Translations under genes and position numbers: made by a program
Source of the DNA: Mycobacterium stomatepiae
GTDB taxonomy: Bacteria; Actinomycetota; Actinomycetes; Mycobacteriales; Mycobacteriaceae
NCBI RefSeq assembly: GCF_010731715.1
Contig: NZ_AP022587.1
Span: 5,022,001-5,086,000, forward strand
Length of the DNA stretch: 64,000 nt
Direction: 5' to 3'
In this document: positions 40,196 through 63,816 of the stretch, one piece after another
Position numbering within the stretch: the first letter of the stretch is position 1
Layout of the letters: each line of letters opens with the position of its first letter
The notes under the pieces: generated by a model
Told to the model about the DNA's origin: nothing
Seen by the model: only the letters and a program-made list of their open reading frames with translations
Database searches by the model: none

Positions 40196-40990
40196 TTACG
40201 AGCCCTTGGGAAAGAAAGTGAAGTTGTTGACGTAGGTGCCGCGGGCCGCCCAGCCGTTCTCGCGGCTGCCGACGTTCGCGGGGTTCTGATGACGTGCCGG
40301 GTCGAACTCTTCTATCGGCCGCCGAGCGTCATCCAGGTCGAAGAAGCCCGCGTAGCCCAGCCCGATCATCAGCCTGGTGATCTCGGCCACCGCGTTGGGG
40401 TGGTGGCGTTCCTCGGCTTCCACCACGACCGTTGGCTGGCTGCGGGTGAGGGTGTCCGTGGCGCCGCGCAGCACGGCCAGTTCGTGGCCTTCCACGTCGA
40501 TCTTGATCAGGCCGACGTCGTCCAAGTGCAGATCATCGAGCCGTTTGACGGGCACGTCGATGCTCTGAATTTCGCCGCCGTCCACGTCGCCAAGGCTGTT
40601 GTCGGTGTCGATCGTGCTGCGGCCGGGCTCGGCTTCGACCACCCGCATCGGCAGCACGCCGGGTTGGTCCGATAGCGCCACCGCTTCCACCCGGACCGCG
40701 GCGCCGACCGCGGCGAACATCGACGCGAGAGCGCGGGCCTGGGCCGGCCGGGGTTCGAATGCGATCACCGCCCGCGACGCCGCCAACATCGCGATCGTGA
40801 ACTCGCCGACGTCCGCCCCGATATCCAGCGAGACCCGGTTGGGATCGCACAACGACGCCGTCAGCTGCACGTCCGCGCGAGATTGGCCCAGCTGTTGCAT
40901 GGCGCGATACTTCCGCCGCCAGAACAGTTGTGGCGCGATCGTCTTTGCCACGGGCACCAGCCAATGTTTGGCCGAGCGTGCGACGGGCAT
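40196..40990 (-). CDS. FkbM-family methyltransferase
   Basis: This 264-residue FkbM-type SAM methyltransferase has motif I VSLDIGADVGEFTIAM, EPRPAQARAL and the family core LIKIDVEGHELAVLRGA. The family O-methylates sugars in glycolipids and polysaccharides. It is flanked by two copies of an 87-bp repeat and starts the polysaccharide region, whose product it may methylate. Confidence 0.85.
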   Translation of the reverse strand: MPVARSAKHWLVPVAKTIAPQLFWRRKYRAMQQLGQSRADVQLTASLCDPNRVSLDIGADVGEFTIAMLAASRAVIAFEPRPAQARALASMFAAVGAAVRVEAVALSDQPGVLPMRVVEAEPGRSTIDTDNSLGDVDGGEIQSIDVPVKRLDDLHLDDVGLIKIDVEGHELAVLRGATDTLTRSQPTVVVEAEERHHPNAVAEITRLMIGLGYAGFFDLDDARRPIEEFDPARHQNPANVGSRENGWAARGTYVNNFTFFPKGS

Positions 40991-41119
40991 CTGTGGGGTC
41001 TCCAGTGGCGGCCTTCTGGCGGTCGCAAGCTCGACGGGGACCGGCCGGGCTGCGGGTCGCCAGCAATTTGTCAGCCGTCAGCCTAGTCGAAGCGCCGGTA
41101 CCCCAAACGTTTGCGCGTA

Positions 41120-41207
41120 CCGCTGACAATCCGGCCGTCGAATGTGGGCTGTATCACTGATCCGGGTGGCTGTGGCGGAGCCGCCGCTCACCCGGGGGCG
41201 CGAATCC
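41120..41207. repeat. 88-bp imperfect direct repeat, copy 2 (fkbM flank)
   Basis: The order is the same as in copy 1 (TGACAAT, TGTATCAC, GCGGAGCC, CCGCTCACCCGGGGGCGCG). It lies in the 233-base interval between fkbM and the first DUF4832 gene; beyond it is the short leaderless-type promoter. Confidence 0.75.
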
Positions 41208-41210
41208 CTC

Positions 41211-41223
41211 TAGCATCGCAACG
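41211..41223 (+). promoter_or_regulatory. -10 element for leaderless DUF4832 gene 1
   Basis: TAGCAT is followed by 7 bases and then ATG at 41224, the usual leaderless layout in mycobacteria. The same TAGCATCGCA stretch precedes the paralogue at 44788. Confidence 0.6.
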
Positions 41224-42780
41224 ATGGTCCGGACACTGAGGCGAGGCGCGGCGGCCGTTGGCGCCTGCGCGGCGCTCGTGTTGAGCGGCTGTGGGAGCCA
41301 CGTCGACCCCGGGCCGCTGTCGGCCATGATCACCCCGGTCATCCCGCCCAGCGTCGCTGACATCTCCAATCCACTGCGCGGCCAGTACGAAGACCTGATG
41401 AATCCGCTTTTCCCGCAAGGCAATCCCGCGCAGCAGCGCTACCCGGCGTGGCCGGCGTCCTATGACGCCAGCATGGGGATCTCGTGGCGTCAGCTACAGC
41501 CCACCGATCCGGCCACCCTGCCTGCCGACGCGCCCGACGATCGCAAGTTCGACTTCAGCGCGATCGACGACGCGCTGAACAAGCTGGCCAGCCGCAACAT
41601 GCGGCTGGCCCTGCGCGTATACCCCTACAGCGCCGACCCGAACGGCACCGGCATCGCCGTTCCCGAATGGGCGCGTCCGCTGACCACCAGCTTTCCCCCG
41701 CCGCCGAACAGTGCCGGGGTGCCGCAGGTGGTGCCGAACTGGGATGACCCGCACTACCTCGACGCGTTCGGCCAGCTGCTCGCGGCGCTGGGCCGTCGCT
41801 ACGACGGCGACGAGCGGCTCAGCGTTTTCGAGTTCTCCGGATACACCCAGTTTCGCGACCAGAGCATCAGCGCCGCGTCGATCCGGCAGCTGGTCGCGGC
41901 GAACGTCGGCGCCTTCGGCCACACCCAATTAGTGGTGGCGCCGCAGAACCCGGAGATCGTGCGCGAGCTGTTCTCCGACGACACCAGCAAGAAGCTGTCC
42001 GCCCCGGTCGGCATCCGCTCGGATTGCCTCGGCCTGCAGTCGCCGTTGCCCGGTTGGGCCGAATCCGGTGACTCGCAGTACGTCCGGAACAACGATGCGA
42101 TCGTCAACGGGATCAAGCAGCGACTGCGCTCGGCTCCGGTGATCACCGAATGGTGCTCCCTGCCCGGCGGGGCCGATCCGAAGGGCTACTACGAAAAGGG
42201 CCTGCACGACGTCGTCAAATACCACGTGTCGATGACGTCGAGCGCGAACTTCCCGGACCGGGATTCGACATCGGCGATGGACCCCAAGCTCTATGCGTTG
42301 TGGGCGCAGGCCAATGCGGCTGCCGGATACCGGTATTCGGTCGACGCGAAGCCGGGATCGCAGTCCATCCAGGGCAAGGTCGCGGCGATCTCGGTGGAGT
42401 GGACGAACTACGGCGCCGCGGCAACCACCGAGCAGTGGGCGCCCAACTACAAGCTGGTGGATTCCACCGGCGCGGTGGTGCGCACGCTGCCGGCCACGGT
42501 CAACCTCAAGACGTTGGTGCATGACGATTCCAGCCCGTCGCGCGAGGAGGCGGTCCCGGCGTCGTCCGCCGAGACCGTGCACGTCGACCTTTCCGGGTTG
42601 GCGCCGGGGCATTACACGCTGCGCGCGTCGGTGGATTGGCAACAGCACAAACCGGGCGCCTCGCACGTGGTGAACTACGGCCCGATGGCACTGGCTCGGG
42701 ACGGGCGCGATGCGTCTGGGCTGTACCCGATTGCCACCCTTGACATCCCGCGCGACTACCCGAACTCAACCAGCGGTTGA
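41224..42780 (+). CDS. DUF4832 lipoprotein 1 (glycoside-hydrolase-like)
   Basis: This 518-residue exported protein has signal peptide and lipobox LVLSGCGS. The N-terminal part is TIM-barrel-like, as in GH42-type hydrolases (YPAWPASYDASMGISWRQL, then GRRYDGDERLSVFEFSGY), and the C-terminal part is a beta-sandwich with DUF4832 features (VSVEWTNYGAA, HYTLRASVDWQQHKP). Possible polysaccharide processing or binding at the surface; no activity is proven. The paralogue at 44788-46461 is very similar. Both flank a c-di-GMP enzyme. Confidence 0.78.
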   Translation: MVRTLRRGAAAVGACAALVLSGCGSHVDPGPLSAMITPVIPPSVADISNPLRGQYEDLMNPLFPQGNPAQQRYPAWPASYDASMGISWRQLQPTDPATLPADAPDDRKFDFSAIDDALNKLASRNMRLALRVYPYSADPNGTGIAVPEWARPLTTSFPPPPNSAGVPQVVPNWDDPHYLDAFGQLLAALGRRYDGDERLSVFEFSGYTQFRDQSISAASIRQLVAANVGAFGHTQLVVAPQNPEIVRELFSDDTSKKLSAPVGIRSDCLGLQSPLPGWAESGDSQYVRNNDAIVNGIKQRLRSAPVITEWCSLPGGADPKGYYEKGLHDVVKYHVSMTSSANFPDRDSTSAMDPKLYALWAQANAAAGYRYSVDAKPGSQSIQGKVAAISVEWTNYGAAATTEQWAPNYKLVDSTGAVVRTLPATVNLKTLVHDDSSPSREEAVPASSAETVHVDLSGLAPGHYTLRASVDWQQHKPGASHVVNYGPMALARDGRDASGLYPIATLDIPRDYPNSTSG

Positions 42781-42912
42781 CACAGCCGGCCGACGCGTTC
42801 CTTCGCCCGGAGAAAACGCGTGGTGCATGATACGGTTCTCTCACTAATACATCTGTGACCTGCTCAAATCTGGCCGCCCGGCCGGGACTTGCGCCCCATA
42901 TCGGAGGACTCC

Positions 42913-44778
42913 ATGCCGCGCAGCCTGGACCTGGTCGTGACCTCCGTTGCCGCGCAACTGGTGGACGCGACAGCGTCCACCGCGATCGAGGTGAGTCAGA
43001 AGGTCCTCGCGCAGCTCGTCGAACAATTCGAAGTGGACGCCGCCTTCTTGCGGCACCGCGACGAGCTTTCCCGCGCCTCGGTGCTGGTCGCGGAGTGGCC
43101 ACCGCGCGTCGAGGTTCCGGATTCGGACCCGGCCGGCGTCGTTCCCTACACCGGCGCCGACCCGCTGCTGTCCCAGGTCGAACAGAACCGCAAACCGGTG
43201 GTGGTGTCGGCCGGTCCGCCCCGGGGTTCGCGGTGGCGCCGGCTGGCGGGCCCCAAGCAACCGAACGTTCCGTCGGTGGTGGCGCCGCCGCTGGTTTCGG
43301 GCGACACGACGACCGGCGTGCTCGGCTTCGTCAGGTTCGGCGCCCGCAAATGGAAGCAAGCCGAGCTCAACGTGCTCGAGGCGGTCGCCACCCTGTTCGC
43401 GCAACTGCAAGCGCGGATCGCGGCCGAGGAGAAGCTGCGCTACCTGGCCGAGCACGACGACCTGACCGGCCTGTACAACCGCCGGGCACTGGTCGCGCAT
43501 CTGTCCGAACGGCTCGCCGCCGGAAAGCCGGGGCCCGTCGCGGTGCTCTACCTCGACCTCGATCGGTTGAAGCCGATCAACGACTATCTGGGCCACACCG
43601 CGGGGGATTGGTTCATCCGGGTCTTCGCCCAGCGCATTCAGGTCTGCGCCGGCAGCCAGGCGATGATCGCCCGGCTGGGCGGCGACGAGTTCGTCGTGGT
43701 GCCCGAGCAGTCGATGTCGCCGGAGACCGCGGAGTCGTTCGCCCGCCGGTTGTCGAAAATGCTCTGCGAGCGGCTGGCCATCGGCGGGCACATGATCAGC
43801 CGCACCGTCAGCATCGGGCTGGCGGTCGGCATGCCGGAGCGCGACAACTGCACCGCGCTGTTGCGCCGCGCCGACGAGGCGGTGCTCACCGCGAAGCGTG
43901 CCGGCGGCAACCAGATCGCGGTGTTCACCGACGACATGTCGTTGAAGAGCGCCTTCCGCAACGACATTGAGCTGCATCTGCAGGGCGATATCGGCAGCGA
44001 GGCGCTGCTGCTGCACTATCTGCCCGAGGTCGACTTGTGGACCGGCGCGGTGGTGGCGGCCGAGGCGCTGGTCCGCTGGCGGCACCCGATCTGGGGACTG
44101 CTGTTGCCAAACGCGTTCATCGGCGTGGCCGAATCGACCAACCTGGCCGGCGAGCTGGGCCGCTGGGTGATGCGCACCGCCTGCGCCGAGTTCAGCCGGT
44201 GGCGTGCCAACGGTGTGGGGCAGGGCGCGGTCCTGCGTGTCAATGTGTCGCCGGTACAGCTGATCACCCGCGGCTTCGTGCGCAGCGTCGCCGAGACGAT
44301 CGAGGAGTTCGGCATCGACGCCGCGTCGTTATGCCTGGAGATCACCGAGCGCGCCGTCGTGCACGACATCGAGACCACCCGCAATACCCTCGCCGAACTC
44401 AAAGAGGTCGGTGTGCAGCTGGCGATCGACGATTTCGGTACTGGCTACGCCGTGCTGTCACATCTGAAGTCGCTGCCGGTCGACATGCTGAAGATCGACG
44501 CCGGATTCGTGCGCGATCTGGGGAACAACGCCGGAGACCTGGCCATCGTGCGCGCCATCATCGGGCTGGCCGAGGCGTTCGGTCTGCAAGTCGTCGCCGA
44601 GGGAGTCGAGACACCCGCTGCCGCACTGACTTTGATGCAGCACGGGTGTCACCGTGCGCAAGGATTCCTGTTGTCCAGGCCCGTCCCCGGCGACGCGATG
44701 GAGGCATTACTGTCCGCACGCTGGATGCCGATGCCGTTCCTCGCCGATCGTGAGGCTTTGTCACAGGGCGCCATCTAG
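42913..44778 (+). CDS. GAF-GGDEF-EAL cyclic-di-GMP enzyme
   Basis: This 621-residue protein has a GAF sensor (about 25-165), GGDEF diguanylate cyclase (motif intact at 256-260) and EAL phosphodiesterase (EAL at 384-386; later DDFGTGYAVLSHLKSL). The architecture is that of Rv1354c, the main c-di-GMP enzyme of M. tuberculosis. The product-inhibition RxxD site upstream of GGDEF is not seen. Start 42913 has GGAGG upstream. Its place between polysaccharide genes suggests c-di-GMP control of that locus (inference). Confidence 0.92.
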   Translation: MPRSLDLVVTSVAAQLVDATASTAIEVSQKVLAQLVEQFEVDAAFLRHRDELSRASVLVAEWPPRVEVPDSDPAGVVPYTGADPLLSQVEQNRKPVVVSAGPPRGSRWRRLAGPKQPNVPSVVAPPLVSGDTTTGVLGFVRFGARKWKQAELNVLEAVATLFAQLQARIAAEEKLRYLAEHDDLTGLYNRRALVAHLSERLAAGKPGPVAVLYLDLDRLKPINDYLGHTAGDWFIRVFAQRIQVCAGSQAMIARLGGDEFVVVPEQSMSPETAESFARRLSKMLCERLAIGGHMISRTVSIGLAVGMPERDNCTALLRRADEAVLTAKRAGGNQIAVFTDDMSLKSAFRNDIELHLQGDIGSEALLLHYLPEVDLWTGAVVAAEALVRWRHPIWGLLLPNAFIGVAESTNLAGELGRWVMRTACAEFSRWRANGVGQGAVLRVNVSPVQLITRGFVRSVAETIEEFGIDAASLCLEITERAVVHDIETTRNTLAELKEVGVQLAIDDFGTGYAVLSHLKSLPVDMLKIDAGFVRDLGNNAGDLAIVRAIIGLAEAFGLQVVAEGVETPAAALTLMQHGCHRAQGFLLSRPVPGDAMEALLSARWMPMPFLADREALSQGAI

Positions 44779-44787: not shown

Positions 44788-46461
44788 GTGATCCGACGAG
44801 TGAGCAAATGCACGGCGGCCGTTGCGGTGTGCGCGGCGCTGGTTCTCAGCGGGTGTGGCAAATCGAATGGCCCCGAGCCGCTGAGCGCGATTGCCAGCCC
44901 GGCCATCCCGCTGACCGTGCAGGAGGTGCCCAATCCGCTGCGCGGCCAGTACGAAGACCTGCTGATGCCACTTTTCCCGCAAGGCAGTCCCGCCCAACAC
45001 CAGTACCCGGCGTGGCCGGCGTCCTACGACGCCAGCTTGCGTGTCACCTGGCGGCAGCTGCAGCCGGTCGATCCGGCCAGGCTGCCTCCCGATGCACCCG
45101 ACGATCGCAAGTTCGACTTCAGCGTGATCGACGACGCGCTAGCAAAACTCGCCGGCGCAAACATGCGGCTGACCCTTCGCGTGGTCGCCTACAACTCCTG
45201 TTGCAACTCCTGGTACCCGAACAACACGAACATCGCGATTCCCGACTTCATGTGGCCGCTGGCTGCCAACTATACTGGGCCGCAACGTTATTGGTGGACT
45301 GCCGGGGTGACGCACGTCGTTCCGAAATGGAATGACCCTCAGTACCTGGACGCGTTCTCTGCGCTGCTCGCCGCGCTGGGTCGCCGTTACGACGGCGACG
45401 AGCGGCTGAGCGTCTTCGAGTTCTCCGGCTACGGAGACTTCAGCGAGAACCACATCTCCTATCAGCGTGACACGCTGGGCGCGCCGGGCCCGGCCCCCGA
45501 CGAAAGCGTGGCAAAGCTCGGCTATTACAGCCAATTTCGTGACCAAGACATCACCGCCGCATCCATTCGGCAGCTCGTTGCCGCGCATGTCAGCGCCTTC
45601 CCTCATACCCAATTGGTGACGACGGCGCTGAACCCGGAGATCGTGCGGGAGCTGCTCGCCGACGACGTCACGAAGAAATTGTCCGCGCCGGTCGGTATCC
45701 GCGCGGATTGCCTCGGCGTCCAGGCGCCCTTGCCCGCCTGGGCCGAGCGGGAAGGCTCGCACTATTTGCAGGTGAAGGATCCGGTCGTCGGTCAGCTGAA
45801 AGACCGGATGGCCGCGGCGCTGGTGATTACCGAATGGTGCCAGTTGCCCGACGGAACCGATCCGAAGTCCTATTACGAAAAGGGCGTGCGCGACGTCGTC
45901 AAGTACCACGTATCGATGACGTCGAGTTACAACTTCCCGGCGGTGGACTCGAGTAGTCCGATGGACCCGGCGTTGTACCTGCTGTGGGCGCGAGCCAACG
46001 TGGTTGCCGGTTATCGGTATACGGCCGAAGCGCAGGCGGGATCGCAAACGTTCCGCGAGGGGGTGGCGACGATCGGGGTCACCTGGACCAACCACGGCTC
46101 CGCCGGCCTCAGCGAGAAATGGGTCCCCGGCTACCGGCTGGTGGATTTCACGGGCGCGGTGATCCGCGAGATGCCCGTGACCGTGAACCTCAAGACCCTG
46201 GTCCACGGCGACAACTCGGGTACCGAACCCGCCCCGGCGTCGGCCAACAAAACCGTGACCGTCGACATCGGGAGCCTGCCGCCCGGGAACTACACCCTGC
46301 AGGCGGCGGCCACCTGGCAACAGCACAAACCCGATGCCTCCCACGTCGTGAACTACCCCCCGATGCGGCTGGCCCGTGACGGGCGCGACGGAACCGGGTG
46401 GTATCCCATCGCAACGGTCGACATACCGCGCGACGTGGTCACCTCCACGCCACGACAGTGA
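44788..46461 (+). CDS. DUF4832 lipoprotein 2 (glycoside-hydrolase-like)
   Basis: This 557-residue paralogue of the 41224-42780 product has the same signal and lipobox (LVLSGCGK), the same barrel and beta-sandwich segments (RGQYEDLLMPLFPQGSP; GRRYDGDERLSVFEFSGY; TWQQHKPDASHVVNY), and an extra ~40 residues at about 145-190 and 220-250. The duplication seems to have included the promoter. The role in polysaccharide metabolism is inferred. Confidence 0.78.
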   Translation: MIRRVSKCTAAVAVCAALVLSGCGKSNGPEPLSAIASPAIPLTVQEVPNPLRGQYEDLLMPLFPQGSPAQHQYPAWPASYDASLRVTWRQLQPVDPARLPPDAPDDRKFDFSVIDDALAKLAGANMRLTLRVVAYNSCCNSWYPNNTNIAIPDFMWPLAANYTGPQRYWWTAGVTHVVPKWNDPQYLDAFSALLAALGRRYDGDERLSVFEFSGYGDFSENHISYQRDTLGAPGPAPDESVAKLGYYSQFRDQDITAASIRQLVAAHVSAFPHTQLVTTALNPEIVRELLADDVTKKLSAPVGIRADCLGVQAPLPAWAEREGSHYLQVKDPVVGQLKDRMAAALVITEWCQLPDGTDPKSYYEKGVRDVVKYHVSMTSSYNFPAVDSSSPMDPALYLLWARANVVAGYRYTAEAQAGSQTFREGVATIGVTWTNHGSAGLSEKWVPGYRLVDFTGAVIREMPVTVNLKTLVHGDNSGTEPAPASANKTVTVDIGSLPPGNYTLQAAATWQQHKPDASHVVNYPPMRLARDGRDGTGWYPIATVDIPRDVVTSTPRQ

Positions 46462-46633: not shown

Positions 46634-48061
46634 ATGGATTTCCGTACTTTTGTCCGGATTATCGCGGCGCACTGGAAGCTCGCCGTGACCGCGCTGCTGA
46701 TGTGTACCCTGGGCGCCGCGTTCGTTACGGCGGTGCAGAACAAGCACTACCAATCGTCGGCCACCGTCCTGATCTCGTTCACCGGTGCTACCGACCTCAA
46801 CGAGGTGTACAGCGGCACGATGGCCGCTCAAGAGCGGCTGTCGTCGTATGCGCAGATCGCCGGTGGACGCAGCGTCGCAGAGCGCGCGGTCACTCAGCTG
46901 CAACTATCCATCAGTCCCGATGAAGTGCTGAGCCAAACCCAAGTCAAATACACCGCTAAATCGTTGCTGTTCACGATCAGCGTCAAGGACACCGATCCGT
47001 CCCGCGCCGCCGCGCTGGCCGGTGCGATGGCGGATCAGTTCAGCGCCCTCGTCCCGACACTGGCCGGCAACCCGCGCCCGGCCGACACCATCGCTACGCC
47101 GACCGACGCTCCGGGAGGCCCCGGACCGCTGGGACCGCTGGGGCCGACGAACAAGCCATTCCCGATCGCCCACGCGAAGGTGGTGGAGTCGCCCCGGATA
47201 TCGCGCGTTCCGGTCTCGCCAGTGCCGGCGCGCAACATGGCGATCGGCTTTATCGCCGGTGTGCTGCTGGCCATCGCGGTGGCGCTGACCCGCGAGGCCA
47301 GTGACCGCACCGTGCGCACCCGCGAAAAACTGGAGGAGCTTTCGGGTTTGCCGACCCTGGCCGAGCTCCCCGGCAAGCGCGGCACGGCCCCGAAGTTCGG
47401 CACCGACGCCGCATTCGACGACGCGGTGCGCGGCCTGGCCGCCCGCCTGCGCAGGGCGATGGGGACCGGGAGCCGCCGCGTGCTCCTCACCGCGCCCTTC
47501 GGGGGCGAGGGAACCACCACGACCGCGCTGAACGTGTCGCACGTCTTCGCCCAGCTCGGCGAGGACGTGCTCTTGGTCGAGGGCGATACTCGCCGGCCCG
47601 TGATCGCCGGCCTGCTGAACGTCGAGTCGGGGGAGGGGTTGGCCAACGCGCTGGCCAACCCCGGTATCGCCGCCGACGCGGTGCGGCCGACGGTGATCTC
47701 CAGACTGTTCGTATTGGCGTCGCGGTCATTCCGCCGCGAGACCCCCTCGGCCAGCTCGTACCAACCGGAAGTGATCGACGCCGTGCTGGCAGACCTGTCC
47801 TCGCGCTTTGACCGGGTGGTGGTCGATGGGCCGCCCGTGTTGGCGACGGTCGACACCGGCCTGCTGGTCGGCGCGGTTCAAGCCACGGTGTTGGTGGTGC
47901 GGGCAAGGCGCACCACCGCCGACGAAATCACAGACGCGTTGACGGCGTTGCGCGCGGTCAACGCGGAGGTCATCGGAACCGTGCTGACCGACGCCCGACC
48001 GTCAATGCGAACCAGCGCCGCGGGACGGAACTACCGGGCAAAGGCCAGAGGGTCGGCGTGA
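46634..48061 (+). CDS. Wzz/BY-kinase-like polysaccharide copolymerase, degenerate P-loop
   Basis: This 475-residue protein has a Wzz domain (TM1 about 15-35; TM2 about 203-220) fused to a cytoplasmic CpsD/BY-kinase-like ATPase. The Walker A reads PFGGEGTTTTALN: the Lys expected after GEG is Thr294. Walker A' is VEGDTRRPVI in place of the usual D-x-D. There is no Tyr-rich C-terminal cluster. Kinase activity is therefore doubtful, and it may act as a structural chain-length regulator of Wzy. It overlaps the polymerase gene by four bases. Confidence 0.85.
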   Translation: MDFRTFVRIIAAHWKLAVTALLMCTLGAAFVTAVQNKHYQSSATVLISFTGATDLNEVYSGTMAAQERLSSYAQIAGGRSVAERAVTQLQLSISPDEVLSQTQVKYTAKSLLFTISVKDTDPSRAAALAGAMADQFSALVPTLAGNPRPADTIATPTDAPGGPGPLGPLGPTNKPFPIAHAKVVESPRISRVPVSPVPARNMAIGFIAGVLLAIAVALTREASDRTVRTREKLEELSGLPTLAELPGKRGTAPKFGTDAAFDDAVRGLAARLRRAMGTGSRRVLLTAPFGGEGTTTTALNVSHVFAQLGEDVLLVEGDTRRPVIAGLLNVESGEGLANALANPGIAADAVRPTVISRLFVLASRSFRRETPSASSYQPEVIDAVLADLSSRFDRVVVDGPPVLATVDTGLLVGAVQATVLVVRARRTTADEITDALTALRAVNAEVIGTVLTDARPSMRTSAAGRNYRAKARGSA

Positions 48062-49575: not shown

Positions 49576-49647
49576 ATGCCCGGTTTGCTGGGGGACTTGC
49601 GTGCGTACACCCGTCAGCCGCGCTGGCGCGCGCGTGGCGGAAAATGA
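49576..49647 (+). CDS. Leaderless 23-residue ORF coupled to a glycosyltransferase
   Basis: This ORF encodes MPGLLGDLRAYTRQPRWRAR and three more residues, a basic peptide. The TGA overlaps the ATG of the following glycosyltransferase (ATGA). A -10 hexamer sits six bases before its ATG, and the glycosyltransferase itself has no good Shine-Dalgarno sequence outside this ORF, so translational coupling is plausible. It may only be a leader, not a functional peptide. Confidence 0.45.
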   Translation: MPGLLGDLRAYTRQPRWRARGGK

Positions 49648-54188: not shown

Positions 54189-54190
54189 GG

Positions 54191-55282: not shown

Positions 55283-55571
55283 CGTCTGCGCCTCTCAGTC
55301 ATATTTCGAGTCCCGCATTGACGATGTATGCGGCTCCGTCGTCGAGCCAGGGGTAGGAGATCAGTGGTGATGCGTTGGACTCGACGCCGATCAAGACCGC
55401 TCTGCCTGGCATCCCTGTCCTTGTACATGATCGCTGTTTTGGCGAGCCCAGCTAACAACGAGGACGCTAGCATCCGGTCGGTCGCCGCTCTCGACGATCT
55501 GATCGATCTGTTTTCCGCAACGGGCGTTAGTCTTCTCGTCTAGCAGCGCGACGCCGGAGGTGACGGGAGAC
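55283..55571. other. Intergenic region, no gene called
   Basis: These 289 bases lie between divergent genes. A 71-codon plus-strand frame (55328-55543) is Arg-rich at the start with no ribosome site, and was not accepted. The interval probably holds the two divergent promoters. Confidence 0.4.
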
Positions 55572-56027
55572 ATGGGCCGCCTGCTGCTGATCGCATCGTC
55601 CGGTGGACACATCTACGAGATGTTCTGTCTGCGGGAGTTCTGGCAGGACAAGGATCGGTATTGGGTCAGTTTCGGCACGGCCGATGCCCGCTACCTGCTG
55701 CGCGACGAGCATGAGGTCTATTGGGCGGCACATCCCACCGTTCGCAACGTGCCCAACCTGCTGCGCAATCTGGTGCTGGCCCTGCGTCTCCTGATCCGCC
55801 ACCGCCCCGCGATGATCCTGACTACCGGTTCAGGCGTGGCCGCGCCCTTCCTGTGGCTGGCGTGGTTCCTGCGGATCCCGACCGTCTTCGTCGAATCCAT
55901 CACCCGCATCACCGGCTTGTCTCTGACCGCGCGGATGGTGAAGCCCTTCGCCTCCCGATTCCTGGTGCAGTGGCCCGAATTGGTCGACCAGATTCCCCGC
56001 ACGGAATATCACGGGAGGGTGGTGTGA
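55572..56027 (+). CDS. PssD/Alg14-like glycosyltransferase subunit
   Basis: This 151-residue protein has the Alg14/EpsE-type start LLLIASSGGHIYEMFCL, RPAMILTTGSGVAAPFLWLA and an internal membrane-associated helix. The family anchors the catalytic subunit to the membrane. The stop overlaps the partner's GTG start (GTGA). A GGGAG site precedes ATG 55572. PssD/PssE pairs transfer glucuronic acid or similar in exopolysaccharide systems. Confidence 0.88.
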   Translation: MGRLLLIASSGGHIYEMFCLREFWQDKDRYWVSFGTADARYLLRDEHEVYWAAHPTVRNVPNLLRNLVLALRLLIRHRPAMILTTGSGVAAPFLWLAWFLRIPTVFVESITRITGLSLTARMVKPFASRFLVQWPELVDQIPRTEYHGRVV

Positions 56028-56563
56028 TCTTCGTGATCATGGGGATGGAGGTGCATCCCTTCGACCGGCTGGCGCACGCGGTCGACGAACTGGCCCGCAC
56101 CGGCGCGGTAGAGGACGATTTTTTCGTGCAGCTCGGCACGTGTAAGTACGAGCCGCGCTACGCCCGGTTCGAGCGCTTCCTCTCCTTCGGAGACCTCTGC
56201 GAACAGATCCGGCGCGCCTCCGTGGTCGTCACGCACGCCGGCGCCGGATCGGCGCTGTCGTGCATCGAGCAGGGCAAGCACCCGGTGATCGTTCCCCGTC
56301 GCTCGTCGCTGGGCGAGCACGTCGACGAGCACCAGCTGCCGTTCGCCGAGAAGCTGGAAGCAGGCGGACTCGCGACCGTGGCCCGAGAGATGGAGGAGCT
56401 GCCCGCGGCGATCGACGCGACGCGCTCGATGTCGGCACCGCCGGACGCGCTCGGCCGGGCCCGTGAGCTGACCGAGTGGCTAGAGACGTACTGGCAAGGG
56501 CTTGGCGCGGGGCGCAGCAAGGGTCGGCGCGGCCTTCGCGCACTCAGCCCGCGCCATCGTTGA
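56024..56563 (+). CDS. PssE/Alg13-like glycosyltransferase catalytic subunit
   Basis: This 179-residue GT28-type C-terminal domain has IFVIMGMEVHPFDRL, then VVVTHAGAGSALSCIEQGKHPVIVPR and EHVDEHQLPFAEKLE, the Alg13/MurG-type UDP-sugar site. It works as a dimer with the upstream Alg14-like subunit. GTG start, translationally coupled. Confidence 0.88.
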   Translation: MIFVIMGMEVHPFDRLAHAVDELARTGAVEDDFFVQLGTCKYEPRYARFERFLSFGDLCEQIRRASVVVTHAGAGSALSCIEQGKHPVIVPRRSSLGEHVDEHQLPFAEKLEAGGLATVAREMEELPAAIDATRSMSAPPDALGRARELTEWLETYWQGLGAGRSKGRRGLRALSPRHR

Positions 56564-56569: not shown

Positions 56570-57629
56570 TCAGCGCCGAGGGGCTATCACGTCGGCGATG
56601 ACGTCCAGGAAGCGCTGCGCGACGATGTCGACGGCGCAGTGCCGCGCGTAGTAACGCGCCGCCTGCGCTCCGAGCTGGGCGGCGATGGCGGGGTCGGCCA
56701 GCAGGTCGAAGGCGGCGGCGAGCCCGGCAACGTCGTCGGCACCGATGGGGTCGCAGCCCGGCGGCTGGTATTCGGGCAGCGCTCCGGCCGTCGAAACGAT
56801 CGGCATGACGCCCAGCTGCATGGAGAGCACCTGCACCCCGCTCTGGGACGCACGCCGGTAGTGGGAGACCGAACCCTTCGCGGCGGCCAGGGTCGGGATG
56901 ACGTCGGCGTAGCGGAAGCTGCCCGTGCGCCAGCGCACGTGTCCGGGGAGCGCGGCGGCGTCCAGCGGCCCGTTGCCGATCAGGACCAGATTGTCTCCGC
57001 GCCAACCGCCCCCGTCGACGTGGCGCTGCCACGCGGCGAGCACGACGTCGACGTTCTTGTAGGGGTTGAGCCGGCCGAACAGGACGAAGTCGCGACGCCC
57101 TTCGGGCCCGACGAAGGGGGGGGATCCGGGACAGGTCGACGTCGCTGGGGAGCGGCACCACGTGTACCGGCGTGCCGGCGACGTCGCGCCGGGTGGCGAC
57201 GGCACCTGCGACGTAGTCGCTGTAGGTGATGGTGGCCGCCGATCGGGCGCCCCAGCGGTCGAATACGGCACGTTCGTAGGCCGGCATCAGTTCGTCGGGA
57301 TCGTGCGGCCGGTCGTCGTGCACCACCTGAATGCGTGGGGTCCGGCCGGCCAGCACGATCCAGCGTGGGTCGCGGACGAGTTCGGCGAGCACTACGTCGG
57401 GCCGGAACGCCCGGATTTGTTGCCAGGCTTTCAGGGTCGGCAGCCATGTCGCGGCGGTCTTGAACCGCGGATCGAGCACCAACTCGTAGTCGCGGGCGGC
57501 GTCCGACTCCGGATGTTGGTCGGAGGTCACCAACAATACGTCGGCGCCTCGCCGCTGTAGTGCTTCGGCCTGCACGCGTACCGCTGGCCGCGTCCACGGC
57601 GAAAGCCACAGTACCCGAGGCGAATTCAC
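56570..57629 (-). pseudogene. Glycosyltransferase with a frameshift in a C8 tract
   Basis: A GT-B glycosyltransferase starts at GTG 57629 (VNSPRVLWLSPWTRPAV) and runs to SRIPP, then an 8-base C run (G8 on the plus strand, 57116-57123) puts it out of frame. The other frame resumes FVGPEGRRDFVLFGRLNPYKN and ends at 56570. Its C-terminal part carries the donor loop (FRYADVIPTLAAAKGSV, QSGVQVLSMQLGVMPIVST). Seven Cs would restore a ~352-residue protein. The stop of the upstream GT2-GT4 gene overlaps its start. Confidence 0.85.
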
Positions 57630-59437
57630 AATACTGCCCCGATCGCGTCGAGGTAGGAGTCGGTCATCGCTTCCACGGTATAGTGCTTTCGCATCCGCGC
57701 GTAGCCGCGTTGTCCGATCGATGACAGCGCGCCGGGGTCCGCCAGGATCCGGGCCAGCTGTTCTCGCCACCCCGACACGGATACGGGCTCGACGAGATAG
57801 CCCGCCTCGCCGAAATCCAGCATTTCCGGTACGGCGCAGATCGCCGACGCCGCAACGGGTATCGCCCGGGACATCGCCTCGAGAATCACCAGCGGGAACG
57901 CCTCGGAGCGGCTCGGAACACACAACAGATCCGCGTCGGCCAGTGCGGGCCCGGGGCCCGGCGACCATCCGCGCCAGCGCACCCGATCGCGCAATTCGGG
58001 GGGCGTGCGCGCCTGCAGCCGTTCCCGATCGGGGCCGTCGCCGAAAATCGACAGCCGCCAAGGCATATCGGCGAGCCCGCTGAGCGCCTCGACGAGCACA
58101 TGCGGGTTCTTGTGCTCGAGGATGCGCGACAGCATCACCAGGTGCACCGGTTCGCCATCGGCCCGGATCCGCCTGCGTGGTTCACCCGGTGCGACCACGC
58201 CGTTGGGTGCGATGAACCGCCGCCCAGAAAGCCGATGCTGCGCGGCCAGTATGTGCCAATGACGTTGTGCCAGAACGATAATGCCGTCGGCGCGGCGGAT
58301 GGCCGCGGTCAGTGGCCGTGAGTAGATGGGCCGGTCCTCCTCGGGAGGAACGTGCGGCGCGACCAACCAGCGCCGACGGGGTGAGGCCGCCCGCCACAAC
58401 GTGGCGAATCCCGTCTCGGTGTTGGTGTCGCCGGAGATCAGCACCGCCGGACCCTTCGCAATATCGACGGCCGTCGCCCACCAAGGCTGGCGCACCACCC
58501 GGACGGACGGTGGAATCTCGGAGATCAACGGGCCGAACCGCTGCATGCAGACGATCGTGACCGAGTAGCCGCGGCGATCCAATTCCGCTGCCAGCAAAGC
58601 CGTTTGCCGTTCGGCCCCGCCGTAGACCAGCCGGTTGGTGGTGATCACGATCGCCGGCAGCTCGGTGTGCCCGCGCTTCGGCCGCCGCAATCGCTGCAAC
58701 AGCGCAGTGCCGGCCAGATATGCGTCCGCGTGGTGAACTCCGTGTCGATGCTCGATGAGCAGCGCGGTGTTGGCACGCACCAGGTCGCGAGTGCGTTCGA
58801 TGCCCGCTGCGGCAGCGGGAGTGACGCGATCGAAGCCGAACTCGTCGGCCGGCAGGACGCGCCAGCCCGCCGCGTGAGCACGGGCCTGCCAATCGGCCGC
58901 CTCACCGTAACCGAAGAACTCTTCGTCGAGGCCGCCGATGCTGTTCCAGGCCGCCCGGTTGATTGCCAGGCAGTCGATACCCAAATACCTTTTGACGCTT
59001 CGTGATTCGCAGGGCGCGGGCGCGTCGTCGTCACGTATCTTCGGCGACACCGCCGCCACCAAAGGCTGGCTAAGCAGCTCTTTGGTGCGGATCAACGGCC
59101 CCAGTAGACGGGTGCCGGAAGTGAGCAACAGCAGGTCGGTGTCGGCCGGCGCGTGCTCGGCCAGTGTGTTGAAGGCGGTGGCAAGGCCAACGTTGGCCGG
59201 GCCCGTCACCCAGTGCACCGCCGGGTAGCGCGCCGCCAGTTCCTCTCCGCCGTTGTCGTTGTCGTAGACGTAGACCGGTAGCTCGGGTAGCTGCTCGGCG
59301 ACGCTGCCGAGGCAGGCATCGAGCGTGTGGTGACCGGTATTGGCCACGATCATCACCGCAAGGGACCGCGTGGACGGCAGGGCGGCGGAGGTGTCGGCCG
59401 GGGGCTTGAGGTATGCCCGCTCCGCTTTACGGCTCAT
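57626..59437 (-). CDS. Two-domain glycosyltransferase (GT2-like + GT4)
   Basis: This 603-residue fusion has an N-terminal GT2-like domain (VIVANTGHHTLDACLGSVAEQ; GPANVGLATAFN; GLDEEFFGYGEAADWQARAHAAG) up to about residue 250, then a GT4-type GT-B domain (NRLVYGGAERQTALLAAEL; LSRILEHKNPHVLVEALSGL; PSRSEAFPLVILEAMSRAIPVAAS). It may add two successive sugars. In the GT2-like part the usual DxD metal motif is replaced by DTDLLLLTSG, so that half may be inactive. Confidence 0.85.
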   Translation of the reverse strand: MSRKAERAYLKPPADTSAALPSTRSLAVMIVANTGHHTLDACLGSVAEQLPELPVYVYDNDNGGEELAARYPAVHWVTGPANVGLATAFNTLAEHAPADTDLLLLTSGTRLLGPLIRTKELLSQPLVAAVSPKIRDDDAPAPCESRSVKRYLGIDCLAINRAAWNSIGGLDEEFFGYGEAADWQARAHAAGWRVLPADEFGFDRVTPAAAAGIERTRDLVRANTALLIEHRHGVHHADAYLAGTALLQRLRRPKRGHTELPAIVITTNRLVYGGAERQTALLAAELDRRGYSVTIVCMQRFGPLISEIPPSVRVVRQPWWATAVDIAKGPAVLISGDTNTETGFATLWRAASPRRRWLVAPHVPPEEDRPIYSRPLTAAIRRADGIIVLAQRHWHILAAQHRLSGRRFIAPNGVVAPGEPRRRIRADGEPVHLVMLSRILEHKNPHVLVEALSGLADMPWRLSIFGDGPDRERLQARTPPELRDRVRWRGWSPGPGPALADADLLCVPSRSEAFPLVILEAMSRAIPVAASAICAVPEMLDFGEAGYLVEPVSVSGWREQLARILADPGALSSIGQRGYARMRKHYTVEAMTDSYLDAIGAVL

Positions 59438-59517: not shown

Positions 59518-60072
59518 CTAGTCCCCCGTGTGTGAGCGACGGTCGTTGACGATCCGGGCCGGGTATCCAGCTACGTCGACGTCGTCGGGCACCGGTTTGG
59601 TGACAACGGCGCCGGGGCGGATGCTGACGCGGTTACCGACGTCGGCACCCAACACCAAGGCCATGGGCGAGATGAACAGGTCGTCGCCGACGGTCGGGTA
59701 GTGGCCGGGACGCCCTTCCCCGATCGTCACTCCGTGATGAATCCGGCAATTCGCGCCGACGCGGGCTTTGTAGTGCACGACCACCAAGCCGGCGTGAGCG
59801 ATCGACAGACCCGGACCAAAGACATTGCGAGGAATGTCGAATCCGAGCCTTTCACCCAAAAGCTTGGTGCGCAGCCTCAGATAGGCAGCGATGACGTGCC
59901 CGGCCGGCGTCCGGGCCGTGTTGGTCCAATATTCGGATTTGCGAAGCAGGCGCTGAAAATAAGCCGGGCGTTCCAAGATCCGGTGGCGCAGTTGCCAACG
60001 TTGCAGGCCGTAGGCTTTCAAGTCCGCCGCCAAGTACGCACGCAGGTCCTCGCGAGTCCTGATCACCGGCAC
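59518..60072 (-). CDS. Serine-acetyltransferase-like left-handed beta-helix acetyltransferase
   Basis: This 184-residue protein has an N-terminal helical part and a hexapeptide-repeat beta helix (IAHAGLVVVHYKARVGANCRIHHGVTIGE ... VGDDLFISPMALVLGADVGNRVSIRPGAVV). It resembles CysE-type and colanic-acid/EPS acetyltransferases. In this locus it probably O-acetylates the polysaccharide; true serine acetyltransferase activity is less likely. Confidence 0.83.
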   Translation of the reverse strand: MPVIRTREDLRAYLAADLKAYGLQRWQLRHRILERPAYFQRLLRKSEYWTNTARTPAGHVIAAYLRLRTKLLGERLGFDIPRNVFGPGLSIAHAGLVVVHYKARVGANCRIHHGVTIGEGRPGHYPTVGDDLFISPMALVLGADVGNRVSIRPGAVVTKPVPDDVDVAGYPARIVNDRRSHTGD

Positions 60073-60124: not shown

Positions 60125-61588
60125 TCATGTCGTCAGTTGATTCTCGCGCAACGACGCCAATGCCGACCACTTCAGCGGCCCGACCGCCGCGCTGGTGGCG
60201 AGGTAAACAGTAGCGGCAGCCACTAGGATGAAAACCACGTGATAGCCCGAGAGTAGCAGTGTCACAACGACACTCGCTGCCGTCGGCACCAGCAACCGCA
60301 GCAAGAACAGCACCGGTGAAGAGTAACCGCACTTGCGGCGCAGCCACCAGCTGGAAATCGCCATGTTGAACAACTCCGTGCACACCAGAGCGACGGCGGG
60401 TCCGACGGCACCGAATCGTCCGGCCAGCAGGAGATTGAGGGTGATGTTGAGTGCGAGAGTGGCGACCGTCAACCACAGCAAGACCTGCTGATAGTGGGCG
60501 GCGACCAAGCCCTGGCCAAGGGTGCCGCCCACGAATCGCAGGGCCGCCGCGATGAACAGCAACGCCAGCGTCGGCGTCCCGCGCTCGACGAACGCCTTAT
60601 CGCCGAAGAGTTCGATCAATGGTCCGGCCAGCAACGCGCCGACAACCGCGACGGGGACTGCCACGAAGCACATCAGCTCGACGCTGCGGCGCAAAAAGCG
60701 GGCGAAGGCGGCGACGTCACGCGAAAACAGCTCGGTGGCCGTCGATAGCGTCGACTTGAGGAATACCAGTGACACCACGATGGTGTTGAAGGCGATCGTA
60801 AAGGCCAGGCCATAGACGCCCACCTCGGAGTGGCTACTGAGCAGGGACAGGATCACGCCGTCGGCGCGGCAGTACAGGTACCCGACCACCAAGAATCCAG
60901 CGAGCGGCAGGCTTTCCCGCAACAGGTCGGCGGCCTCGCGGGGCGCGAAGATCGGGCGCACCGAGATGTGGCGCATCGCCGCCGAACCCTGAATCAGCAG
61001 TTGCACGGCGGGTGGGATGAGTTGTGCAACAGCGAACCACACGACGTCGGATCGCTGCGCGACCAGGAAGGTGACCATGCCCAGCGCGCCGAGCCGGCCG
61101 AGGACGTCGGAGATGGCCACCGCCGAAAACCGCACGGTGGCAAGGAGCACCGGCTCGAATCGTGTCACCATCGTCTGCATCAGCAGTGCCCCGGACAACA
61201 CGACGAGCATCACCTGCACGTCGGAGTCGTGATAGATCAGCAGGCCCGACCCGGCCGCCAGCAGTGCCAGCGGAACGCAGTAGACCAGGGCCATACCGCT
61301 GTTGACGCGGACCAGGCGCTCGAGATCACCGTGGCCGGAGGTCACCCGGCGCACGATCACGGTGGCGATCCCAAGATCGGCCAGGCTGGTCCACATCGCG
61401 ATGAAGAGCATCGCGATGGAGAGCAGGCCGTAGCGCCCGGGTCCCAGGTAGCGGGCGGTCATCGCCACCGACGCCACCGAGGCGATCATCCCCAGCGCTC
61501 GGCAGATCAGCTGGATGGAGAACGCGTGAGCCATCCGCCGCAGCGGCACTGACGGTACGACCGCACCTGGTGCCGTCGGCTCGGTCAT
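60125..61588 (-). CDS. Wzx-type polysaccharide flippase
   Basis: This 487-residue MOP-superfamily protein has about 12-14 TMs. The N-terminus (LICRALGMIASVASVAMTARYLGPGRYGLLSIAMLF) is typical of Wzx/RfbX. It flips undecaprenyl-diphosphate-linked repeat units to the outside for Wzy polymerisation. It ends shortly after the phosphoglycosyltransferase gene's start region, in the same operon orientation. Confidence 0.9.
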   Translation of the reverse strand: MTEPTAPGAVVPSVPLRRMAHAFSIQLICRALGMIASVASVAMTARYLGPGRYGLLSIAMLFIAMWTSLADLGIATVIVRRVTSGHGDLERLVRVNSGMALVYCVPLALLAAGSGLLIYHDSDVQVMLVVLSGALLMQTMVTRFEPVLLATVRFSAVAISDVLGRLGALGMVTFLVAQRSDVVWFAVAQLIPPAVQLLIQGSAAMRHISVRPIFAPREAADLLRESLPLAGFLVVGYLYCRADGVILSLLSSHSEVGVYGLAFTIAFNTIVVSLVFLKSTLSTATELFSRDVAAFARFLRRSVELMCFVAVPVAVVGALLAGPLIELFGDKAFVERGTPTLALLFIAAALRFVGGTLGQGLVAAHYQQVLLWLTVATLALNITLNLLLAGRFGAVGPAVALVCTELFNMAISSWWLRRKCGYSSPVLFLLRLLVPTAASVVVTLLLSGYHVVFILVAAATVYLATSAAVGPLKWSALASLRENQLTT

Positions 61589-61594
61589 GACTCC

Positions 61595-63184
61595 CTAGTA
61601 TGCGCCGTGGCTGGTGAGAACGGCCTTCACGGTCTTGGCGATAATCATCAGGTCGCCCGCCATCGACCAGTTGTCGACATAGGACAGATCCAGCCGGACC
61701 GACTGCTCCCAGGAAAGATTCGAGCGGCCGCTCACCTGCCACAGGCCGCTGACGCCCGGCTTGACCAGCAGCCGGCGTGCGACGTCGCCGTCGTAGTTCT
61801 CGACTTCCCGGCGTAGCGGCGGCCGCGGCCCGACGACGCTCATGTCGCCCTTGATCACGTTGATGAACTGCGGCAGCTCGTCGATGCTGAATCGGCGCAG
61901 TATCCGGCCGACGGGCGTGACCCGGGGGTCGTTGCGCATCTTGAACAACATGCCGCCGGCGCTCTCGTTATGCGCCAGCAGGTGGTCGATCTGCTTGTCG
62001 GCACCGTCGGTCATGGTGCGAAACTTCGGCATGGTGAAGGGGTTTCCGTCCATGCCGATGCGCTCGGACGGGTAGAAGACGGGGCCCCGGCTGGTCAGCT
62101 TGACGGCGATCGCCGCGATGATCAACAGTGGCGCGGTCGCGATCAGGGCGGCCAGGGAGAAGCAGAAGTCGAAGGCCTGCTTCTGAAAGCGCTGTGTCCC
62201 TTCGTATTGCGGCTTCTCGACGTGGAGCAGGGGCAAGCCGGCGGTGAGCTGCAGGGTCAGTCTCGCCTCGGCGACGTCCATCACGCCGGGGGAGACCACC
62301 AGGTCGACGTCCTTGGTCTCCAACTGCCACATCAGCTCTCGGATGCCGCGCACACCGAAGTGCTCGGTCCGGGTGACCGCCACGGTGTCGGCGCCGCAGC
62401 CGTCGATGGCTGCCACGGCATGGCTTTCGTCGCCCAGGATCGGGACCTCGCGGCCGTCGACCACCAGCGTGTTGCCGCGCGACGGGCCGTATCCGGGAAT
62501 GCAGACCCCGACCACGATGCAGCCCGCCCGGGGATTGCGGGCCAGCTCGTGGGCGAGGTGTGCGACCGCCTGCCGGTCACCGACCGCCAGCACCTTGGTC
62601 TGGCACTGGCCGCGAGCACGCAGGCTGCCGAGGTGCTGGCGCCACAGGCTGCGGCTGGCCAGCAATCCGAGGGTGCCGGCGGGCAGGGCGATCGCCAGGT
62701 ACCCGCGGGCCAGGTCGACCTTGGCGAGCAGGGTGACCATCGCGATGATGCCGAAGGTCCAAAAGGACGCGCTGCCGATGCGGCGGTACTCGTCGATGCC
62801 GGCTCCGATAATGCGCGGTGACCTCGTCTGGAATACCGCGAGCGCCGACAGCCACAGCGCCGCGAACAGGATCGAGAACAGCGTCATGACCGGGCCCGAG
62901 TGGCCCGAGGTGCGGGCGGGGGATTCCCCGAACCGGACGTATTGCGCGAGCATGACCGATCCGAAGACGATCACCGAGTCGGTGATGCGCAGTCGCTGCG
63001 AATACTGGAATTGCCAGCGCCGCACGGCATTACCGCGGGGTGCCGCCACCGACCGGATGGCCAATGCCGAACCAGGAAGTCGACCACCCGGCAACGAGAT
63101 CATCCCTGCTGGCTTTCGCTTATGCGGTGGCTGATTGGGGCGGAACGCCGTCGCGGACGGTGCCGGAGCCATTGGCATGATCAT
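61595..63184 (-). CDS. Polyprenyl-phosphate sugar-1-phosphate transferase (initiating PGT)
   Basis: This 529-residue polytopic PGT of the WbaP/WcaJ group has about five N-terminal TMs (about 65-180), a CoA-binding-like domain (about 190-310), then the catalytic domain FDFCFSLAALIATAPLLI, PKFRTM, DELPQFINVIKGDMSVVGPRP and SGLWQVSGRSNLSWEQ. It starts polysaccharide synthesis by moving a hexose-1-phosphate onto decaprenyl phosphate. The first residues (MIMPMAPAP) are of uncertain start. Confidence 0.92.
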   Translation of the reverse strand: MIMPMAPAPSATAFRPNQPPHKRKPAGMISLPGGRLPGSALAIRSVAAPRGNAVRRWQFQYSQRLRITDSVIVFGSVMLAQYVRFGESPARTSGHSGPVMTLFSILFAALWLSALAVFQTRSPRIIGAGIDEYRRIGSASFWTFGIIAMVTLLAKVDLARGYLAIALPAGTLGLLASRSLWRQHLGSLRARGQCQTKVLAVGDRQAVAHLAHELARNPRAGCIVVGVCIPGYGPSRGNTLVVDGREVPILGDESHAVAAIDGCGADTVAVTRTEHFGVRGIRELMWQLETKDVDLVVSPGVMDVAEARLTLQLTAGLPLLHVEKPQYEGTQRFQKQAFDFCFSLAALIATAPLLIIAAIAVKLTSRGPVFYPSERIGMDGNPFTMPKFRTMTDGADKQIDHLLAHNESAGGMLFKMRNDPRVTPVGRILRRFSIDELPQFINVIKGDMSVVGPRPPLRREVENYDGDVARRLLVKPGVSGLWQVSGRSNLSWEQSVRLDLSYVDNWSMAGDLMIIAKTVKAVLTSHGAY

Positions 63185-63252
63185 CGCGCGGCGTCCTTAT
63201 ATCGCACATGATGGGTAGGTCACCTGAAGAACCGGCGCGGTGGCGGCGCCCC

Positions 63253-63816
63253 TCAGCATGAGGCTGCGCTCACAATCGGCGTGGGTCGCGGCGCATATGC
63301 GGGCCAGCTCGCGTCCTCCTCGGAGATCACGGTGACTGGCAGTGGCCATTCGATTCCGAATTCCGCGTCGTCCCAGCGCAATCCCCGCTCGTCGGCCAGC
63401 TCGCGGTGGCTGCTGATCTGGTAGTTGACCTCGGTGTTGGCGGTCAGGGTCTGAAAGCCGTACGCGATGTAGGGCGGCAGGAACAGCGCCCGGTGATTGT
63501 CGGCGTTGAGCTCGACCATCATGTGGTCGCCGAAAGTCTGTGCCTCGGGCCGGATGTCGACGACGGCGGCGGCAATCGCACCTCGAGTGCAGCGCACCAA
63601 CCTGGATTCGGTGTGTGGCGGCACCTGAAAGTGCAGCCCCCGCACGGTACCCCGGGTGTAGTTGAAGAACACGTCGGTCTGGGTGACCTTGAAAGTCAGG
63701 CCGTAACGCTCGAATTCGCCTGCGGAGAACGAACGTGACGAGAAGCCGCGGTGGTCCCGTTGCGGTTCGAGGTCGACGATCGTCACGCCGGCGACCTTTG
63801 TTGGCGTGTACTTCAC
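63253..63816 (-). CDS. RmlC-like dTDP-sugar 3,5-epimerase
   Basis: This 187-residue cupin has catalytic His62 in GTVRGLHFQVPP, RLVRCTRGAIAAAVVDIRP, and the YGF segment (LPPYIAYGFQTL). It would epimerise C3 and/or C5 of a dTDP-4-keto-6-deoxyhexose, giving a rhamnose- or talose-type sugar for the polysaccharide. It is not accompanied here by rmlA, B or D. Whether it is the housekeeping RmlC or a specialised paralogue cannot be told. Confidence 0.85.
   Translation of the reverse strand: MKYTPTKVAGVTIVDLEPQRDHRGFSSRSFSAGEFERYGLTFKVTQTDVFFNYTRGTVRGLHFQVPPHTESRLVRCTRGAIAAAVVDIRPEAQTFGDHMMVELNADNHRALFLPPYIAYGFQTLTANTEVNYQISSHRELADERGLRWDDAEFGIEWPLPVTVISEEDASWPAYAPRPTPIVSAASC

Follow-up and report, generated by a model that had tools for sequence, protein, structure and literature searches.

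A candidate locus for a Wzx/Wzy-dependent exopolysaccharide in mycobacteria, with an associated PPE gene and a c-di-GMP enzyme gene

What does a mycobacterium make with a set of genes for Wzx/Wzy-type polysaccharide assembly, and does a cyclic di-GMP (c-di-GMP) enzyme encoded among them belong to the system? These questions are raised by a stretch of 64,000 nucleotides from Mycobacterium stomatepiae (contig NZ_AP022587.1, bases 5022001-5086000; the whole stretch is called the window below), where a preliminary description made from the sequence alone had placed a nearly complete exopolysaccharide locus at positions 40196-63816, possibly under c-di-GMP control. The host genome is a single contig of 6.21 Mb (GTDB genus Mycobacterium). 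Genes were called with a codon-usage script, their proteins were scanned with Pfam and NCBIfam, and the next 30 kb were also inspected. All the gene classes named in that description were recovered between 40196 and 63816, most of them over the Pfam cut-off and the Wzz-like protein more weakly, and the locus turned out to be longer, running past 63816 and past the window end. We consider it probable that this is a Wzx/Wzy-dependent exopolysaccharide locus, a mycobacterial variant of a known pathway. Wzx/Wzy-type assembly is well supported by gene content, by conservation, and by the outcome of the Pfam scan, which showed no gene product of glycolipid type among the locus proteins that it covered.

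Four core proteins carry this assignment. The PGT, or initiating polyprenyl-phosphate glycosyl-1-phosphate transferase (61595..63064, minus strand, open frame to 63184), obtained 421 bits, for a cut-off of 295.6, with the NCBIfam model TIGR03025 'exopolysaccharide biosynthesis polyprenyl glycosylphosphotransferase', and was over the cut-off of PF02397 as well. The Wzx-type flippase of the MOP superfamily (60125..61588, minus) exceeded the cut-offs of both PF13440 (63.2 bits) and PF01943 (60 bits), and the Wzy-type polymerase of the Wzy_C family (48058..49524, plus) that of PF04932 (50 bits, cut-off 31.7). The gene overlapping wzy by 4 bp encodes a Wzz/Wzc-like co-polymerase fused to a degenerate BY-kinase-type domain (46634..48061, plus). 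Its assignment is weaker, with 24.5 bits for PF02706 (cut-off 25.5) and 95.7 for the eps_fam tyrosine autokinase model (cut-off 108), the resemblance of its C-terminal half to bacterial tyrosine autokinases remaining below the NCBIfam cut-off. The gene set itself is not due to chance: Wzz, Wzx and PGT accompany Wzy in 26 of the 26 loci mapped below (which were picked by Wzy). The P-loop lysine that we take to be diagnostic of BY-kinases was absent from all 27 co-polymerases compared, GEG being followed by T, A or S instead of K, and their last 45 residues held 1-2 Tyr, so that they lack the C-terminal tyrosine cluster of a BY-kinase. From these two features we infer that the kinase half plays a structural rather than a catalytic role.

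The preliminary description had suggested that the PGT/Wzx/Wzy/Wzz set be sought across Mycobacterium. Matches to Wzy were found in 99 of 396 genomes, host included, that is about a quarter; 93 covered nearly the full length with at least 48% identity, five were weak (28-38%) and one was a fragment. By record title the holders include M. colombiense, M. europaeum, M. montefiorense, M. parascrofulaceum, M. scrofulaceum, M. ahvazicum, M. bohemicum and M. nebraskense, and among the best 120 of 249 Wzy proteins the source names further include M. intracellulare, M. malmoense, M. kansasii, M. gastri and M. marinum. M. avium is not among these 120 of 249 and no claim is made for it; it is one of the source names of the BcsB-like protein described below, and the M. 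avium complex is one of those of the lipoprotein LipB. Of the 98 other Wzy-positive genomes, 29, selected mainly for few contigs and not at random, then supplied regions of 40 kb. Three of them (G171, G275 and G156), with Wzy-like matches of 28-38% and other genes lacking, were dropped before counting, which left 26 mapped loci, where 'absent' means absent from the fetched 40 kb only. The PGT/Wzx/Wzy/Wzz set was present in every one. A panel of 80 genomes served for presence and absence counts (G000-G083 minus G003, G005, G008 and G025, whose completeness is 70-84%); completeness reaches 90% or more, and contamination stays at 5% or less, in 76 of the 80.

The mapped loci share a constant frame. 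Besides Wzz, Wzx and PGT (26 each), it comprises an FkbM-family methyltransferase (40196..40990, minus; PF05050, 68.9 bits) in 25 loci, and lipB, the GT4 glycosyltransferase GT4b (56570..57575, minus, in two reading frames in this genome) and a PPE gene in 24 each. Less constant are GT2-4 (57626..59437, minus), a two-part glycosyltransferase with a C-terminal GT4 domain by Pfam and an N-terminal GT2-like part by eye, found in 22 loci, the GAF-GGDEF-EAL gene (22), the BcsB-like gene (17) and that for an RmlC-type dTDP-sugar 3,5-epimerase (63253..63816, minus; Pfam) in 13. The PPE gene of one locus (G367) could not be seen, as the stretch stops near RmlC. The centre, by comparison, is variable. 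In the window it holds, each assigned by Pfam unless stated, a GT4 cassette gene (49644..50657, plus; 11/26 loci), an aldo/keto reductase gene in two reading frames (50644..51599, plus), a GMC-type oxidoreductase (51590..53287, plus; 11/26), a conserved protein without Pfam match (53319..54194, minus; 6/26), a GFO/IDH/MocA sugar oxidoreductase (54191..55282, minus; 6/26) and the Alg14-like (55560..56027, plus) and Alg13-like, GT28 C-terminal (56024..56563, plus) halves of a two-part glycosyltransferase (6/26 each). A hexapeptide acyltransferase (59518..60072, minus; Pfam) lies between GT2-4 and Wzx; 'Hexa' matches adjoining TetR in some other genomes are a different gene. The aldo/keto reductase was scored in 0/26 loci, an artefact of the broken query, and another mapping finds one in 11. 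Other cassettes replace the window genes with a UDP-sugar dehydrogenase, an epimerase and a methyltransferase (G325), or hold two C-methyltransferases (G006). Capsule and O-antigen loci are built in this way, with a conserved frame around a variable centre. As the cassette differs between genomes, the polymer probably differs too. In the host the cluster is placed between pabB and metS; 6 of the 26 regions show neither gene, and in 5 of these 6 the PPE gene is still present, with at least 53% identity.

How does the locus compare with known ones? The E. coli group 1 capsule is, we assume, an example of the same Wzx/Wzy pathway. The mycobacterial locus departs from this pathway in that its genomes (27) are without a Wza/OPX exporter over cut-off, in the missing P-loop lysine of its Wzc-type half, and in the addition of PPE, BcsB-like and barrel-fold lipoprotein genes. 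Another example is offered by the imp/wps clusters of Actinoplanes missouriensis, where, in the part of the report available, PGT, Wzx, Wzy, a Wzz-type gene, glycosyltransferases and modifying enzymes likewise stand in one cluster with a constant frame and a variable centre (PMC13390465). M. marinum EpsH was considered as a part of the locus and set aside on the part of its description at hand, in which Rv2957 is the nearest M. tuberculosis relative.

The first of the additions is the PPE gene. Its 3' end is in the window (63861..64000, minus) and it continues to 65018 (L071); Pfam assigns its 96%-identical M. florentinum counterpart to PPE-SVP, and the small gene adjoining the PPE gene of G006 encodes a PE protein. 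With the M. florentinum protein as query and a threshold of E ≤ 1e-80, the 80-genome panel yielded 19 genomes with one copy each, 19 of the 23 Wzy-positive and 0 of the 57 Wzy-negative ones (Fisher p 8e-15, relatedness not corrected for), and in 19/19 the PPE start lay 1.9-5.8 kb from the PGT start. Strong matches were lacking in the Wzy-positive G030, G075, G078 and G080; G075 has a PPE gene beside RmlC at a laxer threshold. For the OPX/Wza exporter (PF02563), 0/27 locus-bearing genomes had a match over cut-off, with one sub-cut-off match in G291, and 4 of 14 controls were positive. Because the PPE protein is tied to the locus and no Wza/OPX was found over cut-off, we propose that it serves at the mycomembrane, where the polymer would exit or be anchored. 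PPE10, an ESX-5 substrate of M. marinum, is needed for capsule integrity, and carbohydrate export is one option raised by its authors in the part of that report available (PMC4900558). Both are PPE proteins tied to a capsule or, for the locus protein through its gene context, to a capsule-type locus; they differ in that PPE10 is a PPE-MPTR protein, whereas the locus protein is a PPE-SVP encoded inside a polysaccharide locus. More broadly, PE/PPE proteins have been linked to outer-membrane transport, direct structural evidence for a pore being said to be lacking (PMC11434571, seen in part). A second PPE-PGT pairing was observed in a different glycan locus of G072 (L150:6121-10256), with PE, PPE and WXG100 genes followed by a PGT gene, the stretch adjoining, by eye, nucleotide-sugar-type genes and a gene of polyketide synthase (PKS) type.

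The second addition was revealed by fold search. The protein of 663 residues encoded at 67086-69077, past the window end, has a BcsB fold across 536 residues; by sequence it had no Pfam or NCBIfam match, and PDB-sequence matches at chance level only. The BcsA-BcsB cellulose synthase shares this fold, and the difference is that the locus protein stands without a processive partner: a BcsA-like GT2 query from G055 found no match at E ≤ 1e-20 in 23 of the 24 Wzy-positive genomes searched, host included, and matched in all 8 other genomes searched, G055 itself included. A PilZ receptor, too, is missing (see below). In G083, G055, G066 and G011 (L132, L133, L135 and L136), a BcsB homologue was seen with a BcsA-like GT2, which carries QxxRW in L133, and two other proteins beside ribosomal protein genes; these sets are a candidate cellulose-type synthase of some mycobacteria.

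The third addition is a pair of lipoproteins. LipB (44788..46461, plus; 24/26 loci) is predicted to be secreted and to adopt a (beta/alpha)8, glycoside-hydrolase-type fold: its AlphaFold2 model (pLDDT 67) matched many barrel hydrolases with Foldseek and VIA, whereas the PDB sequence search gave one weak match only (E 0.0046). LipA (41224..42780, plus; 11/26 loci), a paralogue with 61% identity, matches DUF4832 below cut-off; LipB has no DUF4832 match. If, as we presume, the two catalytic glutamates of clan GH-A on strands 4 and 7 apply here, the first is present in 39/39 lip sequences and the second in 25/27 LipB and 5/12 LipA sequences, and these residues would be catalytic; LipA carries a deletion after the strand-4 glutamate. 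PslG, the endoglycosidase of the Psl operon, was matched by the LipB model in Foldseek (4zn2, 5bx9 and 9g17, ranks 41, 43 and 44) and is not among the 50 VIA matches listed; the differences are low global TM-scores (0.27-0.29), an identity of 12%, and the lipoprotein anchor of LipB.

Several genomes keep only parts of the locus. Five Wzy-negative genomes (G015, G023, G026, G029 and G063) have lipB alone, 67-70% identical, between metS and pabB, and these lipB-only genomes (L171-L175) show no GAF-GGDEF-EAL match at E ≤ 1e-100. G057 and G058 are without the core and retain, in the interval from pabB to metS, the GGDEF-EAL gene and a lip gene. In M. lepromatosis (G074, L176), lipB is in fragments with stops; the three identical GGDEF-EAL copies of this genome had been described before. 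Rv1006 of M. tuberculosis presumably sits at the same site, between pabB (Rv1005c) and metS (Rv1007c). A 36-residue Rv1006 peptide printed in PMC8006519, a source available in part, aligned with LipB with 21 identities over 35 positions (E 1e-10 for the pair). In the part of PMC3087520 available, Rv1006 is listed as a possible transfer, 'glycosyl transferase'.

Is production of the polymer controlled by c-di-GMP? The GAF-GGDEF-EAL protein noticed within the locus (42889..44778, plus, start codon uncertain) is borne out, with Pfam domains over cut-off and intact motifs. The GGDEF, EAL and EG.E patterns were found in 37/37 sequences, DDFG(T/A)G in 33 and the RxxD inhibition-site pattern in 1, and the protein is likely a bifunctional c-di-GMP cyclase/phosphodiesterase. 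Its EAL domain matches 5yrp, which we take to be DcpA, at E 6e-110. Its domain order is that of M. smegmatis DcpA and M. tuberculosis Rv1354c, the latter as given in the part of PMC6364259 available. We give somewhat less than an even chance to the explanation that the Wzx/Wzy locus is real and this enzyme a bystander, a global enzyme of the DcpA/Rv1354c type. It is the sole host protein of its type at E ≤ 1e-100, so that it may serve globally, in a genome with 13 GGDEF domains; 4 of the 26 regions lack it, and it lies about 37-41 kb from wzy in the Wzy-positive G056 and G073 and persists in the two polymer-less genomes; and no PilZ receptor (PF07238) was matched in 27 genomes, 5 of 14 controls being positive. 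On the other hand, in a tree of 36 GGDEF-EAL proteins, 22 locus-site sequences, the relics G057 and G058 included, form one clade of their own (support 100/98), other copies in the same genomes being clearly more distant from the window protein, which sets it apart from the DcpA/Rv1354c type. The locus copies of G116, G291, G338 and G030 fall outside this clade (that of G291 groups with a type found outside the locus), so that in four further loci other subtypes stand near the same genes. In 11 of 22 loci, 2-13 bp separate the enzyme gene from a lipB gene, the distance in the window being 9 bp, and in the panel a protein at least 71% identical to the window enzyme was found in 20/23 Wzy-positive and 2/57 negative genomes, the two relics. 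A parallel, also at odds with a bystander, is seen in the part of PMC7112168 available: Gram-positive Pel clusters have a DUF4832-type gene and a dual c-di-GMP enzyme beside an exopolysaccharide locus, the DUF4832 gene occupying the place of the bifidobacterial dual cyclase/phosphodiesterase gene; Pel is, however, synthase-dependent and the DUF4832 likeness limited to the sub-cut-off match of LipA. That the GGDEF-EAL type is exclusive to the locus was rejected, nine non-locus rows needing 5 tree changes (shuffled mean 8.1). A historical link of the enzyme to the locus is likely. The proposed c-di-GMP control stands in part: presence in 22 of the 26 loci, proximity to lipB and the clade speak for it, the four empty regions, the polymer-less genomes and the lack of PilZ do not, and we regard it as plausible.

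Is the pathway alive in this genome? Compared with M. florentinum (G363) from pabB to ispE, 29 of 31 proteins, all core ones included, align in a single frame along almost their entire length. The aldo/keto reductase (50644-51599) and GT4b (56570-57575) each match in two frames. We think it unlikely that these breaks mark a dead pathway heading to the lipB-only state. The five lipB-only and two core-less sites show that such states occur; the 29 unbroken proteins argue against it, and both breaks could be sequencing or assembly errors as well as real decay.

The idea that the locus makes a lipid-linked oligosaccharide or a glycolipid head group, or glycosylates a protein, with 'Wzy' acting as a ligase onto an acceptor, is more improbable still: PF04932 spans ligases and polymerases, homologues are often named 'O-antigen ligase' in their sources, and a PMT-type protein mannosyltransferase gene lies 4 kb away (but also occurs in the five lipB-only genomes), whereas the Wzz-type gene overlaps wzy by 4 bp and is present in 26/26 loci, chain-length proteins accompany polymerases, and no PKS, MmpL, FadD or Pap-type gene, which we take as markers of mycobacterial lipooligosaccharide, glycopeptidolipid and phenolic glycolipid loci, was found among the 40196-63816 proteins scanned. 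A known mycobacterial glycolipid pathway was set aside on this ground.

Several points weigh against the Wzx/Wzy exopolysaccharide locus that we favour. The polymer is a prediction from genes, and the genomes are related, so that the counts are not independent. The Wzz match stays under the cut-off, and the kinase half of the protein seems inactive; Wzy_C alone cannot separate a polymerase from an O-antigen ligase; PGT homologues occur in 62 of the 80 panel genomes, so this gene is not special to the locus. BcsB is missing from 9 of the 26 fetched regions and GGDEF-EAL from 4, and PilZ had no match in 27 genomes. Finally, two genes are broken or misassembled here, one of them the GT4b found in 24/26 loci, so that the product may not be made by this strain.

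From homology and gene order, a Wzx/Wzy-dependent exopolysaccharide would be made as follows. PGT would load the first sugar phosphate onto the polyprenyl carrier on the cytoplasmic side, and GT4b, GT2-4 and the cassette glycosyltransferases would assemble the repeat unit, modified by the oxidoreductases, the epimerase, the FkbM methyltransferase and the acyltransferase. Wzx would flip the unit, and Wzy, together with the Wzz-type co-polymerase, would polymerise it on the outer side of the membrane. Judging from its model, LipB probably sits anchored at the surface as a hydrolase or binder and trims the polymer, in the way that PslG trims Psl. Co-occurrence, together with fold and family respectively, suggests that the BcsB-like protein probably guides the chain through the periplasm and that the PPE protein probably helps the polymer to exit or to be anchored at the mycomembrane; the GAF-GGDEF-EAL enzyme, by its adjacency, may tune production via local c-di-GMP. 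A bolder reading joins all these parts, and as a whole we hold it to be quite doubtful: mycobacteria would export a Wzx/Wzy polysaccharide by a mycomembrane route of their own, in which a locus-dedicated PPE protein replaces Wza, a BcsB detached from cellulose synthase guides the chain, barrel-fold lipoproteins trim it and the GGDEF-EAL enzyme sets output, the tubercle and leprosy bacillus lineages having lost the polymer and kept a relic lipoprotein (Rv1006) or its pseudogene.

The surroundings of the cluster are as follows. On the left it is bordered by a chorismate-binding enzyme (pabB by eye), a sigma-70-family factor and an oxidoreductase. To the right, the PPE gene (63861-65018) is followed, past the window end, by two TetR genes (65490-66179 and 66298-67011), the BcsB-like gene, a PAS protein gene and metS, beyond which come tatD, rpfB, ksgA and ispE (housekeeping names by eye). 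Of these, the PPE, TetR and BcsB-like genes are counted as part of the frame of the locus. An IS30-type transposase gene was recognised by eye at L072:407-1453 (84407-85453 in extended coordinates). The panel genomes with PGT homologues often have several each, and other polysaccharide loci may thus be common in the genus.

In the parts of the open-licence PMC literature consulted, no description of this locus was found. In the parts of PMC6364259 and PMC12167362 available, the genes for mycobacterial cellulose and other biofilm polysaccharide are called unknown. The locus is a concrete candidate for such biofilm polysaccharide genes, in a range of species whose names among the Wzy sources include M. 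intracellulare, M. kansasii, M. marinum and M. scrofulaceum. If the proposal is true, PPE proteins would gain a precise possible role, in polymer export or anchoring, and Rv1006 of M. tuberculosis would be explained as the relic of a lost surface polymer.

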